This document shows positions 12,930 through 17,610 of a DNA stretch of 64,000 bases, piece after piece (the stretch's first letter is position 1; every line of letters begins with the position of its first letter). The position numbers and the translations under genes are program-made. Source of the stretch: Paenibacillus sp. FSL H7-0357 (GTDB lineage Bacteria > Bacillota > Bacilli > Paenibacillales > Paenibacillaceae); the NCBI RefSeq assembly GCF_000758525.1, contig NZ_CP009241.1, forward strand, positions 4,898,001 through 4,962,000. The letters run 5' to 3'. The notes beneath the pieces are model-generated. The model searched no databases. It worked only from the letters and a program-made list of their open reading frames with translations, and was not told the origin of the DNA.

Positions 12930-13655
12930 CTAGTCATTTTCATCCGAATCGCTGAACAGCTCACGCAGAACACTCTTTCTATTTTCGAGAAACCGTCTTG
13001 TGATCATGTAATGCATCGTCTCTTCATAACGAATTTCCCCAACCGGATCTTCATCGAAATTCAGAATCTGGGCATCCGGATAACCGAGAAGAATCGGCGA
13101 ATGTGTAGCTATGATGAACTGGGCTTCATGTTCCAGATCCTTAATAATACGGAGTAAGGCCAATTGCCGTGCTGGCGAAAGAGCCGCCTCCGGTTCGTCG
13201 AGTAAATAGATCGCCTTTTTGCCGAAACGATGATTAAAGAGTGCCAGAAACGCCTCACCATGGGATTGCTCGTGCAACGAACGCCCACCATAATACTGCA
13301 AGCTCTGAGGCATAGTATCCAGATGAGAGGCAAAGTGATAAAAGGTCTCTGCCCTGAGAAAAAAGCCGTTCGTAACTTTGGGCAGCCATGATAAGCGAAT
13401 ATGATCTCCCAGAGCAGAGTGGGAAGCATCCACCTCGTAGAGGTTGTTCTTGCTGCCTCCTGCTGTATTAAACCCGCATTGATAGGCCATGGCCTCCAGA
13501 AGGGTTGATTTGCCCGAACCGTTCTCTCCCACAAAGAAGGAAACGTTTGTTTTGAATTCAAGAGAGCTCAGGTTCTTTAAAGCTGTAATGGAAAACGGAT
13601 AACGGCTATGGTCCATTTCATGTTTCCTCAGAATTTCAAGACTGCGCAAGAACAA
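12930..13655 (-). CDS. AAA-family ATPase, RecF/ABC-like
   Basis: 241 residues with Walker A GENGSGKST (about 43-51), the Q-loop region, an SHGEAFLALF helix at the signature position, Walker B YLLDEPEAALS and the H-loop ATHSP. This is the compact single-gene form of the SMC/RecF-like ATPases found across Firmicutes, often called AAA_23 or predicted ATPase. The start is TTG at 13655 after GGAGAGGG. No partner nuclease or toxin gene adjoins it, so a specific role cannot be assigned. Confidence 0.8.
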   Translation of the reverse strand: MFLRSLEILRKHEMDHSRYPFSITALKNLSSLEFKTNVSFFVGENGSGKSTLLEAMAYQCGFNTAGGSKNNLYEVDASHSALGDHIRLSWLPKVTNGFFLRAETFYHFASHLDTMPQSLQYYGGRSLHEQSHGEAFLALFNHRFGKKAIYLLDEPEAALSPARQLALLRIIKDLEHEAQFIIATHSPILLGYPDAQILNFDEDPVGEIRYEETMHYMITRRFLENRKSVLRELFSDSDEND

Positions 13656-13789
13656 GGTACCCTCTCCCCACCATTTTTATAGAATTGTTCCATCGTTGTT
13701 CTTACCATACACCTGCGGAATGTTTGATCTGCCGGCCGCTGTAGTCGTAAGAATTTCTTGATTTCGTTCCGCTGTTCGCGGCTAAACGT

Positions 13790-15010
13790 CTATTCAGTCT
13801 CAGTGCGCTGCCGGGACGCCAGCCGCCGAAACTGAATGAAGATAAACAGAGCGGTCAGCATCACGACTATTCCTGAACCGAGGAACCATAGCTGCACGCC
13901 GTATTCATCCACCACGGGTCCTGCCAACAGAAGTCCAACCGGTGAAGACAGCATCATAATACTGGTCACGAGTGAAATGACGCGGCCCAGCATCTCCGGC
14001 TCGAATGAACGCTGAATCATCGCCATGAAGGGGCCATTGAAGAAGGGTGCGGCACTTCCCATGAAGAACGAGAGAACCGCAAAGATCACAAAAGCATCCG
14101 AACCAATCAAGCCGCTGATTACACAGGTCAGGCCGATGACCAGCAGACCCAAACTCATATAGCTAATATCACTCCATTTGGATGAGAACACCGACAGAAG
14201 CAATCCTCCCAAAATCATCCCGATGCTGAACACCGCTTCCACCAAGCTGGCACTGTAGCCCCCACGGCCAAAATGAGACAACGTCATATAAGGAAATAGT
14301 GTCGCCAGCGGCATAAACGCGATACTGAACACTGCTGTAGCCCCCGTAATCAACACAATAGGTTTTGCTTGAATGAGTGCGCTCCAGCCCAGCCGGAATT
14401 CATGGATAAAGGAGGGTGAAACTGTTACCTGCGCTTTGGGCTGATGAATCTTCACCAGGAACAGCATTAGATTCGCAATCAGCGCCCCGGCCACATCCAG
14501 GAGCAATACCGCCCCAAGCGAAGTCGCCGAATATACTGCTATCCCAAGCGCTGGACCCATTACATTCGAGAAAGAGAAGACCATCTGCTGCCAACCCGCG
14601 ACTCTTGTCAGCTCCTCTTCCGGTGCAATCAACGGAATGGCCGCCTGGAAAGCCGGGGCATGAAAGGCCGAAGCCGCCGAACGCAAGCTCAGAATGATAT
14701 AGACGAAGCCGAGTCCCGGCTCCCCCAAAATGAAATAGAACCCTAAGATCAGACTGAAGAGCGCAATTGCGCTATCCGCAATAATCATCGTTAATTTACG
14801 GTTCCAGCGGTCCAGCCAGACCCCTACGAAGGGACCCAGGACAGCTTGCGGCAAGAATGCAGCCAATCCGGCAATCATCAAAACTGCGGCTGAACCTGTC
14901 GATTCCGTCAAATGCCAGATCACTGCGAATTGAACCATCGAACTCGTGAGTATAGAGAATATCTGTCCGCTAAAAATAAGCGCGAATGTTTTTTTCCATT
15001 GTTTTTGCAT
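13790..15010 (-). CDS. MFS efflux pump, Mef-like (macrolide efflux family)
   Basis: 406 residues with 12 membrane segments. N-terminal pattern GQIFSILTSSMVQFAVIWHLTE, then FLPQAVLGPFVGVWLDRWNRK (MFS motif A region), SAFHAPAFQAAIPLIAPEEELTR, and C-terminal MLGRVISLVTSIMMLSSPVGLLL. All parallel the Mef(A)/Mef(E) macrolide exporters of streptococci. The ATG at 15010 follows AAAGGAG; a longer frame to 15097 lacks a ribosome-binding site. An eight-codon leader peptide of macrolide type lies 135 nt upstream (15145-15171), strongly supporting drug-inducible expression. No msr/mel ATPase gene follows it, unlike streptococcal mef operons. Actual substrate is inferred. Confidence 0.85.
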   Translation of the reverse strand: MQKQWKKTFALIFSGQIFSILTSSMVQFAVIWHLTESTGSAAVLMIAGLAAFLPQAVLGPFVGVWLDRWNRKLTMIIADSAIALFSLILGFYFILGEPGLGFVYIILSLRSAASAFHAPAFQAAIPLIAPEEELTRVAGWQQMVFSFSNVMGPALGIAVYSATSLGAVLLLDVAGALIANLMLFLVKIHQPKAQVTVSPSFIHEFRLGWSALIQAKPIVLITGATAVFSIAFMPLATLFPYMTLSHFGRGGYSASLVEAVFSIGMILGGLLLSVFSSKWSDISYMSLGLLVIGLTCVISGLIGSDAFVIFAVLSFFMGSAAPFFNGPFMAMIQRSFEPEMLGRVISLVTSIMMLSSPVGLLLAGPVVDEYGVQLWFLGSGIVVMLTALFIFIQFRRLASRQRTETE

Positions 15011-15144
15011 AAGGTCATCTCCTTTGATTAAAAACTCAAATAAACTCATTCCATTAGCATAGGCAGACTGAAACAGGCGCATAACAAATAAACTCATTCC
15101 CTTGTCTCAAAAAATGGGTGAGTTCACCAGTCTTGCACCTCCAA
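15011..15144 (-). promoter_or_regulatory. Leader region between stalling peptide and mef-like gene (candidate attenuator)
   Basis: After the leader stop codon come a small GGTG/CACC hairpin (15117-15128) and a run of six T on the minus strand (15109-15114), then two copies of a 16-mer (15037-15052 and 15085-15100). On the transcript both copies carry GGAATG, complementary to CATTCC inside the leader ORF; the proximal copy gives 8 bp (CATTCCAT with ATGGAATG). Alternative pairings of this kind fit attenuation, but the structure has not been folded by computer. Confidence 0.45.
15037..15100. repeat. Two copies of a 16-bp direct repeat upstream of the mef-like gene
   Basis: CAAATAAACTCATTCC occurs exactly at 15037-15052 and 15085-15100, 48 bp apart. 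Both lie in the transcribed leader of the efflux gene. Confidence 0.9.
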
Positions 15145-15171
15145 TTACCGTAAACGTATGGAATGGGTCAC
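15145..15171 (-). CDS. Macrolide-type regulatory leader peptide (MTHSIRLR)
   Basis: A GTG at 15171 preceded by AGGAGGTG with six bases spacing opens an eight-codon ORF (fMet-Thr-His-Ser-Ile-Arg-Leu-Arg, stop 15145-15147). Known leaders that stall ribosomes with macrolides share this form: MTASMRLR-type peptides of mef and msr genes, and the MTHSMRLR start of ErmD/ErmK leaders. The critical Arg-x-Arg motif is present. A TATAAT box at 15200-15205 lies just upstream. It should therefore control the mef-like pump downstream. The same frame is open further 5', so use of this GTG rests on its ribosome-binding site. Confidence 0.8.
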   Translation of the reverse strand: MTHSIRLR

Positions 15172-15212
15172 AAGGAGCACCTCCTGAAAAATTATGTTTA
15201 TTATAACATCGC

Positions 15213-15278
15213 CTATCCTCCATGAGCCAGTTTCAATAATCGGCTCGTCTCTTCCATATCTTCTAAGGTCCATTCCAT
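15213..15278 (-). pseudogene. Possible 5' remnant of an ArsR-type regulator
   Basis: An ATG at 15278 has AGGAGG eight bases upstream and opens 21 codons ending at TAG 15213-15215. The peptide contains LEDMEETSRLLKLAHG, which resembles the first helix of ArsR-family repressors (…EETSRLLKLLGDPTR…), and then stops where the conserved DPTR would begin. It sits directly upstream of the promoter box for the leader and efflux genes. It may be the truncated start of a lost regulator, or a functional short ORF. Too short for a firm call. Confidence 0.3.
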
Positions 15279-15344
15279 TCAGCATTCCTCCTGAGGTACA
15301 ATAGTATAATTAACCAAATAAATGCTATTACGGAGGTAATAAAT

Positions 15345-15620
15345 ATGAAAAAAAACATTTCAGTTGTATTGATTCTCGCAATTTTACTTATCTCTTTGTC
15401 AGCTTGTGCAAAAAATAGCCCCACTAAATATGTAGATGCAAATGGAAAAGAGTATACATATAGTCTTGAGTTAAGTGGCACAATGCCAAATGCTGAAAAG
15501 TCGAGTAAATGGGTCGTTTACACGAATGATGCTGATTTGACATTTGATGAGGCAGCAAAAAGTATATTGAGTTCTAATTCAAATGACTGGATTGATATGC
15601 ATATTGTTTCAATGGAATAA
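15345..15620 (+). CDS. Small hypothetical lipoprotein
   Basis: 91 residues. Signal peptide with lipobox LSAC (Cys about 21), then a short mature part containing YVDANGKEYTYSLELSGTMPNAEKSSKW and a C-terminal FDEAAKSILSSNSNDWIDMHIV. ACGGAGGT precedes the ATG. No family recognised. It probably sits on the outer face of the membrane. It is convergent with the ribose operon. Confidence 0.65.
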   Translation: MKKNISVVLILAILLISLSACAKNSPTKYVDANGKEYTYSLELSGTMPNAEKSSKWVVYTNDADLTFDEAAKSILSSNSNDWIDMHIVSME

Positions 15621-15630
15621 TATAGGGCTA

Positions 15631-15672
15631 AAAAAAGCCCGGTGATGCAGGAATTCCTGAATCACGCGGGCT
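15631..15672 (-). terminator. Terminator of the ribose operon
   Basis: A long imperfect hairpin (AGCCCG at 15636-15641 pairing with CGGGCT at 15667-15672, with an inner CAGGAATTCCTG palindrome). On the minus strand a run of T follows. It may serve both convergent genes. Confidence 0.75.
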
Positions 15673-15708
15673 TTGCATGGGTTGAAGCAGAATATGCCTT
15701 GTCTTCTA

Positions 15709-16626
15709 TTACTCTTTCACGATCAGCTTCAGCGGTGCGGGAATCATTGGCTTCACGGTCTGCCCGTCCAGTACATCCTTTGCAGCTTGAACGGCCAACT
15801 GGCCGATTAATTCGGGCTGCTGGGCGATGGTTCCGGTCAGTTTGCCTGCCTCGATGGAATCAAGAGCGTCTTTGTTGCCGTCGAACCCGATTACGGGGAT
15901 GTTTTTACCCGAGCTCTGGATCGCTTCAATCGCCCCTAGAGCCATCTCGTCATTGTGTGCGAAGACTGCCTGCACGCCCGGATTTCCTTCGATCAGGTTC
16001 TCCATGACGGTCAATCCTTTGGTGCGGTCGAAATCGGCGGTTTGCTTTGCAATGACCTCAAGCTGGGTATCCGCGATTTCATGGAATCCCTTACCCCGTT
16101 CACGGGTGGCTGATGCGCCCGGTGATCCTTCCAGCTCGATGACCTTCGCACCCTTGCCCAGCTTCTGGACGATATATTCAGCCGCCATGGAACCGCCTTT
16201 GATGTTGTCCGAAGCGACCAGCGCTTTGACATCTCCTTTATCCGCCGAGCGGTCTAATGTAATGACGGGGATATCTAGGCTGTTCGCCGACTGGACCGCC
16301 GTCGAGATTGCCGATGAATCCACAGGGTTGATCAACAACGCGTCTACCCCTTTTTGTATCAGATCCTCCACATCATTGTTCTGCTTGGCAGAGTCATTCT
16401 GCGCGTCGATAACCAGGATCTCCACCCCTTGCTTATTCGCCTCGGCCGTCACGCCGTCTTTGAGGGCCACGAAGAAGGGATTGTTCAGAGTTGAGAGAGA
16501 TAAGCCGATTTTCAAATTTTGCCCGTTGCCTTCATTATTGGGCTTGGCCCATTCCGGGGGCTCCAGGGAGCAGCCAGTCATTAGCAGCAGCAGTATGGAC
16601 GTCAGGACTAAAGTGATTTTTTTCAT
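15709..16626 (-). CDS. rbsB: Ribose ABC transporter substrate-binding lipoprotein RbsB
   Basis: 305 residues. Lipoprotein signal with MTGC (Cys19), then the periplasmic-binding-protein class I fold: IGLSLSTLNNPFFVALKDG, DAQNDSAKQNNDVEDLI, INPVDSSA, TLDRSA, and IGFDGNKDALDSI. These are typical RbsB ligand-loop blocks. It captures ribose outside the membrane and delivers it to RbsAC. It is the last gene of the operon, 15 bases after rbsC, and is followed by a hairpin terminator. Confidence 0.95.
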   Translation of the reverse strand: MKKITLVLTSILLLLMTGCSLEPPEWAKPNNEGNGQNLKIGLSLSTLNNPFFVALKDGVTAEANKQGVEILVIDAQNDSAKQNNDVEDLIQKGVDALLINPVDSSAISTAVQSANSLDIPVITLDRSADKGDVKALVASDNIKGGSMAAEYIVQKLGKGAKVIELEGSPGASATRERGKGFHEIADTQLEVIAKQTADFDRTKGLTVMENLIEGNPGVQAVFAHNDEMALGAIEAIQSSGKNIPVIGFDGNKDALDSIEAGKLTGTIAQQPELIGQLAVQAAKDVLDGQTVKPMIPAPLKLIVKE

Positions 16627-16641
16627 AATAGAATCCCCCTT

Positions 16642-17610
16642 TTATGCGGCTTTCTTGCGGTCAATCAGTACGGCTATCGCAATGACAATCCCTTTGACCA
16701 CCATTTGGTAGAAAGAAGAAACGCCCAGCAGATTCAACCCGTTGTTCAGAATTCCGATAATGAGCGCACCGATCAAGGTACCCACAATACGTCCGCGGCC
16801 CCCGGTCAAGCTGGTGCCTCCCAGTACAACGGCCGCGATAGCATCCAGCTCATAGGAGGTTCCTGCCGTTGGCTGGGCCGAATTCAACCGGGAAGTCAGA
16901 ATGGCCCCGGCCAATGCCGACAGCATACCTACCAGTGAATAAATCATAATTTTGATGCGGTCTACCTTAATCCCGGAAATTATTGAAGCTTTCTCATTGC
17001 CGCCGATGGCATAAGTCTTGCGGCCGAACGGCGTTTTGTGCAGTACGACCCACAACAGAGCGAACACGATAATCATCGTCACAGCTGGAACAGGAATGCC
17101 CAAGAAGTACCCGCGGCCAAACAATTGGAATGTCATGCTGTCTCCAAGGCCCGTAATCGGATTGCCATCCGTATAGACTAGAGTTAATCCCCGGAAGATC
17201 GTCATAGTCGCCAAGGTAGCGATGAACGGCGCCATTTTCCCCTTGGTGATCATTAGGCCGTTGACCATCCCGATCACTCCACCCAATACACAGCCGCCGA
17301 TAATCGCCAGTATGGGATTCCAGCCCGCCAACAGCAAGTTGGCCATGAAGGCACTGGAGAGCGCGAGAACGGAACCCACCGATAAGTCAATTCCGCCTGT
17401 CAGAATGACAAAGGTCATGCCAAAGGCGATCAGCGCGTTGATCGCAACCTGCCGGAGCAAATTCAGAATATTAAGCGGCTCCAGAAAGCTTGGGTTCAGC
17501 ATGGACACGATGAGAACAAGAATAAATAACCCCAACAGCGGACCCAACTTTTGTGTAATCTGCCCCACCCGCAAACTCTTCTTTTCTTTGCCATCCGTAA
17601 TTGTTGTCAT
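16642..17610 (-). CDS. rbsC: Ribose ABC transporter permease RbsC
   Basis: 322 residues with about ten membrane segments and the branched-chain/sugar permease (BPD_transp_2) motifs: GMTFVILTGGIDLSVGSVLALS and AAVVLGGTSLTGGRGRIVGTLIGA. ATG at 17610 is chosen because AGGGGGG lies upstream and the frame begins just after the rbsA stop; an earlier in-frame ATG at 17646 would be inside rbsA without a good site. Works with RbsA and RbsB. Confidence 0.95.
   Translation of the reverse strand: MTTITDGKEKKSLRVGQITQKLGPLLGLFILVLIVSMLNPSFLEPLNILNLLRQVAINALIAFGMTFVILTGGIDLSVGSVLALSSAFMANLLLAGWNPILAIIGGCVLGGVIGMVNGLMITKGKMAPFIATLATMTIFRGLTLVYTDGNPITGLGDSMTFQLFGRGYFLGIPVPAVTMIIVFALLWVVLHKTPFGRKTYAIGGNEKASIISGIKVDRIKIMIYSLVGMLSALAGAILTSRLNSAQPTAGTSYELDAIAAVVLGGTSLTGGRGRIVGTLIGALIIGILNNGLNLLGVSSFYQMVVKGIVIAIAVLIDRKKAA

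Follow-up and report, generated by a model that had tools for sequence, protein, structure and literature searches.

The 64,000-nucleotide (nt) stretch of Paenibacillus sp. FSL H7-0357 analyzed here (the window, whose numbering is used throughout) carries a gene for a Mef-like major facilitator superfamily (MFS) pump, preceded by a short leader open reading frame (ORF) within a structured RNA, and the control of this pump gene is the subject of the present study. A first-pass annotation, made from the DNA letters, had proposed a macrolide-type ribosome-stalling leader peptide in front of a Mef-like pump, a proposal that the comparison with relatives described below supports. The features of the locus, all on the minus strand, are as follows, with the evidence for each in brackets.

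15205-15200, minus strand: -10 box TATAAT with TGt in front, i.e. an extended -10 (sequence)
15185-15178, minus strand: Shine-Dalgarno (SD) sequence of the leader ORF, AGGAGGTG (sequence)
15171-15145, minus strand: leader ORF, also the 5' arm of a long-range stem (sequence, conservation, pairing with the downstream arm)
15125-15085, minus strand: conserved hairpin with TTTATTTG at its end; probably a pause hairpin, capping the stem (register and covariation)
15100-15085, minus strand: first 16-nt repeat GGAATGAGTTTATTTG, the 3' arm of the pause hairpin and its T-rich tail (sequence)
15066-15042, minus strand: anti-leader arm, which pairs with the leader ORF and includes part of the second 16-nt repeat (pairing tests)
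15052-15037, minus strand: second 16-nt repeat GGAATGAGTTTATTTG (sequence)
15041-15026, minus strand: interrupted T-rich tract ATTTGAGTTTTTAATC past the long-range stem, candidate termination site (sequence)
15024-15019, minus strand: pump SD, AAGGAG (sequence)
15010-13790, minus strand: gene of the Mef-like MFS pump, 406 codons plus stop (NCBIfam, Mef(B) similarity)

The leader ORF reads GTG-ACC-CAT-TCC-ATA-CGT-TTA-CGG-TAA, encoding V(M)THSIRLR-stop; since its start codon is GTG, the reading MTHSIRLR assumes formylmethionine. Its SD, its Arg-x-Arg ending and the 134 nt between the leader stop and the pump ATG (15010) are as first annotated, and with a short ORF, an SD and a +x+ (Arg/Lys-x-Arg/Lys) ending it has the sequence features of an ErmDL/MefAL-type leader. 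The annotated TATAAT just upstream is likewise present, and recurs at the corresponding place in two relatives (L003 and L032; by eye). The ORF of the pump is also readable in frame from 15097, which makes it longer; the start was set at ATG 15010 because AAGGAG lies at normal spacing from it and the starts of many orthologues align there. The best NCBIfam models for the pump are MefB (321 bits, cut-off 800) and MefA (279.5 bits, cut-off 675), and since both scores lie below the curated cut-offs the pump is called Mef-like only; its closest plasmid relative is Mef(B), with 42.5% identity over 97%. The locus lies within a single 7.7-Mb contig, and a plasmid origin was rejected, as no plasmid DNA match was found. 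Folding of the leader transcript, which the first-pass annotation had advised, gave z = -3.8 for the 196-nt leader, and an Rfam scan of 13000-16800 returned one chance-level match only (E 4).

Conservation of the leader and its endings

Pump relatives (E <= 1e-60) were found in 53 of 295 sampled family genomes, 25 of 100 genus genomes and 13 of 398 genomes of a phylum sample; a search of genome contigs gave 37 more named pump loci, and some matches never became loci. Merging of identical sequence around the pump start left 98 pump loci, 54 at >= 64.7% identity (orthologues) and 44 at <= 43.8% (distant). By a rule demanding an SD-like site, 5-16 codons and the ending [RK]x[RKWQ], a leader lies upstream of the pump in 45 of the 54 non-redundant orthologue loci, as compared with a mean of 0.45 leaders and a maximum of 2 in dinucleotide shuffles of the same upstream regions (20 rounds). 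In five further orthologue loci (L044, L046, L048, L067 and L108) an ABC-F gene immediately precedes the pump, and the leader lies in front of that gene; a leader stands at the head of the transcription unit in 50 of the 54 orthologue loci. Conservation of the leader wherever the pump is conserved had been set beforehand as a test that could refute the first-pass annotation, and the annotation passed it.

The ABC-F/pump operons carry tandem short leaders, MIPRIW, MVPRIW or MVYFMRLR followed by an ORF ending G[IM]H[LW]YFFI (the leader of L108 was taken from the L140 sequence). The annotated absence of an msr/mel ATPase holds for the window, where no ABC-F gene was found in the operon and the gene 3' of the pump (13655-12930) is a RecF/AAA-type ATPase (ABC-F model score 29.5, cut-off 380), but does not extend to these five of the 54 relatives, where an ABC-F gene lies between leader and pump.

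The leader rule is passed by 18 of the 44 distant pump loci. By eye, MTHSMRLRFPTLNC (GTG start), which is nearly the ErmK leader, was seen upstream of a Mef-like gene at L117 (G575), and MYLIFM, the MsrDL leader of the literature, upstream of a Mef-like gene in another family at L118 (G714, a genome that holds four Mef-like matches). Leader-like short ORFs without +x+ stand at the Mef-like pumps L089, L090 and L113 (MMMLLFF, MAFLELY and, by eye, MMTLLFY). A search of relatives for the leader motif upstream of mef genes, also advised by the first-pass annotation, was made with a degenerate DNA pattern of the leader: 11 matches were found in the 295 family genomes and none with the pattern reversed, nine of the 11 being upstream of Mef-like genes and two (L103, L104) upstream of ABC-F genes.

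The 62 tallied leaders end in Arg-x-Arg (52), Arg-x-Trp (nine) or Arg-x-Gln (one), a natural series that could be used for probing the drug specificity of stalling. Arg-x-Trp leaders (MTHSIRLW, MGIHFKRIW, MIPRIW, MIPRVW and MVPRIW) occur in L003, L012, the L023-L031 group, L044, L046 and L067. On the pump tree, where the count of Trp endings includes the leaders of ABC-F operons (12 Trp rows of 68), these endings need four changes, at least three of them forced by well-supported branches; Arg-x-Trp leaders arose at least three times, with independent origins in L003 (MTHSIRLW), L012 (MGIHFKRIW) and the MIPRIW rows. Known systems are compared here as far as partial texts of PMC4335068, PMC10314930, PMC6851288, PMC9226507, PMC8298421 and PMC6238534 describe them. 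According to these texts, the motifs at which erythromycin arrests ribosomes in vitro include +X(+) and +X(W) (PMC6238534), and the Arg8 to Trp change in ErmDL relieves telithromycin stalling, +X+ being dispensable for erythromycin (PMC8298421). From these arrest data, a response to erythromycin and none to ketolides is predicted for the Arg-x-Trp leaders.

The conserved hairpin and the leader:arm stem

Among 20 window-type loci, the hairpin with TTTATTTG ends 58-62 nt past the leader stop in 17, irrespective of leader length (the exceptions being 67, 67 and 85 nt in L085, L086 and L087), and its distance to the pump start varies from 41 to 285 nt. In the window it ends 60 nt past the leader stop, and TTTATTTG fits the NusG pause motif TTNTTT. 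The hairpin was anchored by a motif pattern in 17 of the 20 loci and by a given string in three; the short leaders of L005-L008 and L036 are without the hairpin element. Across 17 sequences, 85.9% of the cells of the pause hairpin are paired, as compared with 80.8 ± 1.5% in shuffled alignments (0/500 as high) and at most 53.5% when slid, and its covariation score is 0.319 versus 0.237 shuffled (1/500). RNAalifold alone gives a weak hairpin consensus (-0.94 kcal/mol, 7 pairs).

The first-pass annotation had described a small hairpin with six U. The six U are present, but belong to the larger conserved hairpin 15125-15085, in whose loop they sit, and a simple terminator at this hairpin was rejected for this reason. 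Also rejected was a switch in the pause hairpin itself with polymerase at the pause: this hairpin forms with and without a stall mask (covering the bases under a ribosome whose P site holds codon 7, which removes leader:arm pairs by construction), and a clear change was seen only in L016 among the 20 loci.

Most of the leader ORF can pair with an arm whose start lies 4-23 nt past the hairpin element (23 loci). The duplex program always finds some pairing, and hence swap, shuffle and covariation tests were applied. Leaders pair with their own arm at -19.4 kcal/mol and with swapped arms at -16.2 kcal/mol (20 loci, p 5e-5), and, relative to shuffles of the downstream sequence, z is negative in 23 of 23 loci (-0.6 to -4.3, mean -2.5), as compared with mean z of -0.26 and +0.27 for control segments 3' and 5' of the leader. 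In a leader:arm alignment of 18 sequences and 16 pairs, 74.7% of the cells are paired (70.4 ± 1.0% shuffled, 0/500; at most 45.8% when slid), and nine of the 16 pairs changed on both sides versus 4.8 shuffled (0/500). Because the leader strand of this stem is translated, its choice of codons has changed in step with the arm. The leader segment CATTCC can pair with either GGAATGAGTTTATTTG repeat (by eye), and the annotated pairing of two 16-nt repeats with the leader ORF is in this respect upheld.

These observations bear on a reading in which the 5' region is constitutive, the short ORF and hairpins being unconnected remnants and the TATAAT promoter driving the pump whatever the drug. Such a reading would accommodate the orthologue loci that have a pump and no leader, of which there are four, and the failure of the terminator scan to report a strong terminator; it conflicts with the conservation, the fixed register, the covariation of leader ORF and arm, and the presence of the same RNA before other macrolide-resistance-type genes (below), and we regard it as highly improbable.

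Related leaders before other resistance genes

A search of 60 relatives with the 196-nt leader DNA gave matches in five genomes. In G333 and G261 the match (71-72% identity) is accompanied by no pump relative in the genus search, and the next gene encodes an RlmA-II/TlrB-like 23S rRNA methyltransferase; the leaders are MIHFIRLR and MIIKFIRLR, and the methylases score 158 and 156 bits with the RlmA model (cut-off 303) and 97 and 103 bits with the Erm(32) model (a G748 methylase; cut-off 550), respectively. TlrB-like methylases (E <= 1e-40) occur in 92 of the 295 family genomes. In 28 of 32 TlrB-like loci a leader was found by scan, and inspection by eye adds three of the other four (L158, L167 and L169). 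R1, as we call a covariance model trained solely on 18 pump leaders, matches 31 of the 32 (approximate E 2e-18 to 4e-8; L161 was missed), with nothing at E <= 1 in eight loci around the ABC-F-like genes of the window genome and eleven Mef loci of other phyla. A T-rich motif ends 56-62 nt past the stop in 27 of 27 TlrB-like leaders (a loose motif, searched for from +40 to +80 only), and TlrB-like leaders pair with their own arm at -19.3 versus -17.3 kcal/mol with swapped arms (p 5e-5, close relatives included). The leader MIIQFIRYR, as printed for the B. subtilis tlrB leader peptide (PMC6851288), is found in two R1 matches of one Bacilli genus, before RlmA-II-like genes (L235, E 4.6e-5; L271, E 5.3e-4).

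As judged by sequence comparison, then, the leader is conserved, its register is fixed, the hairpins covary, and the element is homologous to the leaders of TlrB-like genes; by its register, by the place of the leader in the repressing stem and by sequence and structure homology, the window RNA is on these grounds best read as a TlrB-type attenuator. One mark of that type, a stall that frees the SD of the gene, was not found in the window by folding.

In 255 family genomes R1 gave 98 matches (E <= 0.01) in 85 genomes, which were assigned by place (<= 900 bases from a Mef-like or TlrB-like gene) or by sequence comparison. They are followed by 63 TlrB-like, 15 Mef-like, nine Erm, five macrolide esterase, one Mph and one ABC-F gene; one stands before another methyltransferase and three are without assignment. 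A macrolide-resistance-type gene thus follows 94 of the 98, or 84 of 88 after subtraction of the 10 Mef-like matches that are training loci. R1 had been given pump leaders and no Erm, Mph, esterase or methylase proteins, and led to genes of all four kinds. Representatives scored 214, 243 and 233 bits with the broad NCBIfam Erm model (above its cut-off of 212) and 476 and 470 bits with that for alpha/beta macrolide esterases (above 420); MphC scores were 302 and 320 bits (below 550, the Mph family being assigned by best matches), and the ABC-F Msr family model gave 518 bits (below 680) for a frame cut by the locus end. In the class sample, R1 matches are present in 37 of 279 genomes; those read (many, not all) include TlrB-like genes, Erm (L209, L264, L275), Mph (L256, L257, L262, L263, L265, L266, L267), esterases (L231, L232, L234, L260, L261), one other MFS protein (L259) and several places without an assigned gene. 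The R1 structure covaries across gene classes, although this covariation leans towards the model, because the alignment was fitted to it and includes two weak antisense matches. The leader scan found no leader at the R1 matches L245, L251, L254, L268, L269, L270, L273 and L275, and no +x+-ending leader at L224, L229 and L274.

The genes that follow these matches bear on whether the window attenuator answers some other ribosome block (by another class of antibiotic, or a general slowing of translation) and its pump has another substrate. Scores well below the Mef cut-offs, and the lincomycin response of vmlR, a related design (PMC9226507), would fit such a reading; the Arg-x-Arg ending, the near identity of the leader to the ErmD and mef(E) leaders, and the macrolide-resistance-type genes after 94 of the 98 matches argue against it, and we hold it to be very unlikely.

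The window genome has one R1 match. A short-ORF scan of six of its eight ABC-F-like loci, a weak one that began at the longest ORF, found no leaders. In the closest relative of the window genome, a second, weaker R1 match (L252, G013:C1:2593971; E 0.005) with the leader MIIKFIRLR precedes a macrolide esterase-like gene, and at L245 (G048:C1:42332; E 1.5e-5) the match stands before an S-adenosylmethionine (SAM) methyltransferase outside the known resistance families.

A second architecture was seen in 32 loci picked for a strong hairpin before the pump. A hairpin resembling a terminator (-14 to -26 kcal/mol) begins there 123-161 nt past the leader stop, with its end 23-82 nt short of the pump. 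The best helix between the post-leader region and the terminator 5' arm contains GTGGGCTT in 12 of the 32, and the stall mask raises early pairing of the terminator 5' arm in 28 (one lower, three unchanged). This group, which includes the MIPRIW group and a distant pump clade, is matched by R1 weakly or not at all; it is a different architecture, which looks like classic antitermination.

Taken across gene classes, these data make it likely that one homologous macrolide-sensing RNA family, seen in print for tlrB only, has been passed among at least six resistance-gene classes in Bacilli (efflux, RlmA-II/TlrB-type methylase, Erm methylase, macrolide phosphotransferase, macrolide esterase and ABC-F protection), with its readout (termination or SD masking) and its leader ending (Arg-x-Arg or Arg-x-Trp) repeatedly retuned. 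Descriptions of macrolide leader peptides have mostly dealt with one gene at a time. Should the family hold, the sensor would be a regulatory part that is independent of the resistance mechanism and directly searchable, and unnamed genes could be recognized by it as probable macrolide-response genes. A literature search that left subscription journals mostly outside found, among the papers listed, no description of an attenuator shared across tlrB, erm, mph and esterase genes. The first-pass annotation had placed the novelty in an ErmD-like leader on an efflux gene, but mef(E), mef(A) and mef(I) already carry MTASMRLR (PMC4335068); the leader peptide is of a known kind, and the family-wide reuse of the RNA seems to be the part that is new.

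Attenuation model, readout and known systems

For the window itself, we consider it very likely that 15205-15010 is a macrolide-responsive TlrB-type attenuator controlling the Mef-like pump; stalling, pausing, termination, the inducing drug and the pump substrate we infer there. Transcription would start just 5' of the leader SD, and RNA polymerase would pause at TTTATTTG, giving the ribosome time to read the leader. In the absence of drug the ribosome would complete the leader and depart, and the leader ORF would pair with 15066-15042 to close a long hairpin capped by the pause hairpin. The closed hairpin would most likely lead to termination at the T-rich tract 15041-15026, a readout that is favored because the pump SD lies outside the stem. 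A ribosome whose exit tunnel holds a macrolide would halt at Arg6-Leu7-(Arg8) and cover the leader ORF, so that the stem could not close and the pump would be transcribed. In the free fold of the transcript to 15028 (-53.4 kcal/mol), 16.4 leader:arm pairs are expected and the pause hairpin sits at the apex; with the stall mask the arm re-pairs with the 5' arm of the pause hairpin, which falls from 9.8 to 1.0 expected pairs. T-rich tracts lie 3' of the arm in a number of relatives, though not in all.

Several results weigh against this model. The pump SD is not freed by the stall mask, its opening cost being 5.5 kcal/mol free and 5.9 kcal/mol stalled; in the folding of 61 loci it goes from 4.8 to 4.3 kcal/mol, and masks elsewhere (2.5-4.8 kcal/mol) do no worse. 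The terminator scan is silent on 15041-15026, where the T-rich tract is interrupted, no good -35 box was seen upstream of TATAAT, and the promoter consensus scan is silent there. No leader was found by the rule in four of the 54 orthologue loci (L106, L038, L101 and L030). In the swap test the own arm is the best of 23 in only three loci, because the leaders are much alike, and the control segment 3' of the L045 leader reaches z -3.3, beating the leader. The fit to TTNTTT is partly circular, a similar pattern having been used in the search, with the position of the motif independent of it, and the R1 E-values are rough, the calibration being short. For tlrB, erythromycin is reported to have given no toeprint at the RYR leader (PMC6851288), and the inducer of the window leader therefore cannot be assumed.

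The same foldings bear on pure translational attenuation as in ermC, in which the structure would hide the pump SD and a stalled ribosome would free it, with no termination. In five of 15 window-type loci (L102, L015, L018, L016 and L045) the stall mask cuts the SD opening cost from 10.1 to 1.2, 11.5 to 3.3, 9.1 to 1.9, 5.2 to 1.0 and 9.1 to 5.3 kcal/mol, respectively, i.e. by 3.8 to 8.9 kcal/mol as compared with at most 2.7 for same-size masks elsewhere, and in most of the five the arm overlaps or sits close to the SD. The cost falls by >= 3 kcal/mol in eight of 61 loci, as counted with a crude SD finder that in some distant loci selects sequence clearly unlike an SD. For the window and the remaining nine of the 15 loci, the effect of the leader mask does not stand out, and the element keeps its register to the leader stop and not to the pump, which is 285 nt away in L004. 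Since the window SD is not freed, translational control is not predicted for the window gene; translational attenuation was rejected as its leading readout, and as a full account of the locus we think it unlikely. The modeling suggests that related genes may use the same stem for termination in some cases and for SD masking in others.

Of the known systems, B. subtilis tlrB is described as induced by tylosin; its leader carries Arg-x-Arg, a NusG pause hairpin caps both its terminator stem and the stem that sequesters the SD, and 180 leader peptides are reported upstream of its homologues (PMC6851288). The attenuator proposed for the window resembles tlrB (yxjB, RlmA-II) in its short Arg-x-Arg leader, in the pause hairpin that caps a longer stem, and in the covariance-model homology of window-type leaders to TlrB-like leaders, two of them with the peptide printed for B. 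subtilis. It differs in that it would control an MFS pump rather than a 23S rRNA G748 methylase, in its peptide (THSIRLR versus IIQFIRYR), and in that its SD sequestration is not predicted to be relieved.

With S. pneumoniae mef(E)/mel (PMC4335068) the window shares an eight-codon leader (MTASMRLR versus MTHSIRLR), a Mef-family pump and, as proposed here, transcription attenuation that needs the leader. As described, mef(E)/mel has a 327-nt leader, a classic terminator, mel (ABC-F) in the operon and an association with mobile elements, whereas the window has a TlrB-type RNA, no ABC-F gene at the locus and no plasmid match. The window peptide is also close to that of erm(D)/erm(K) (MTHSMRLR; PMC4335068), and ErmDL is reported to stall at Leu7 with Arg8 in the A site (PMC8298421), but the ermK peptide is longer (14 residues), the controlled gene is a methylase, and the likeness to the window is by peptide alone. 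The annotated likeness to ErmD is retained for the peptide; the RNA is related to the leaders of TlrB/RlmA-II-like genes. B. subtilis vmlR has in common with the attenuator proposed for the window an upstream ORF, a pause hairpin with the NusG motif TTATTT, and attenuation; in contrast, its upstream ORF is MIN, lincomycin arrests ribosomes there during initiation, and the gene is of the ABC-F type (PMC9226507).

Two other small ORFs lie near the promoter. A short ORF, MEWTLEDMEETSRLLKLAHGG, at 15278-15213 on the minus strand, with AGGAGG at 15292-15287, is located just 5' of TATAAT, and was not seen at the corresponding place in L003 (by eye). On the plus strand, a divergent small lipoprotein-like ORF (15345-15620) with a weak Lmo2079-type match begins ~140 nt from the pump -10 box.

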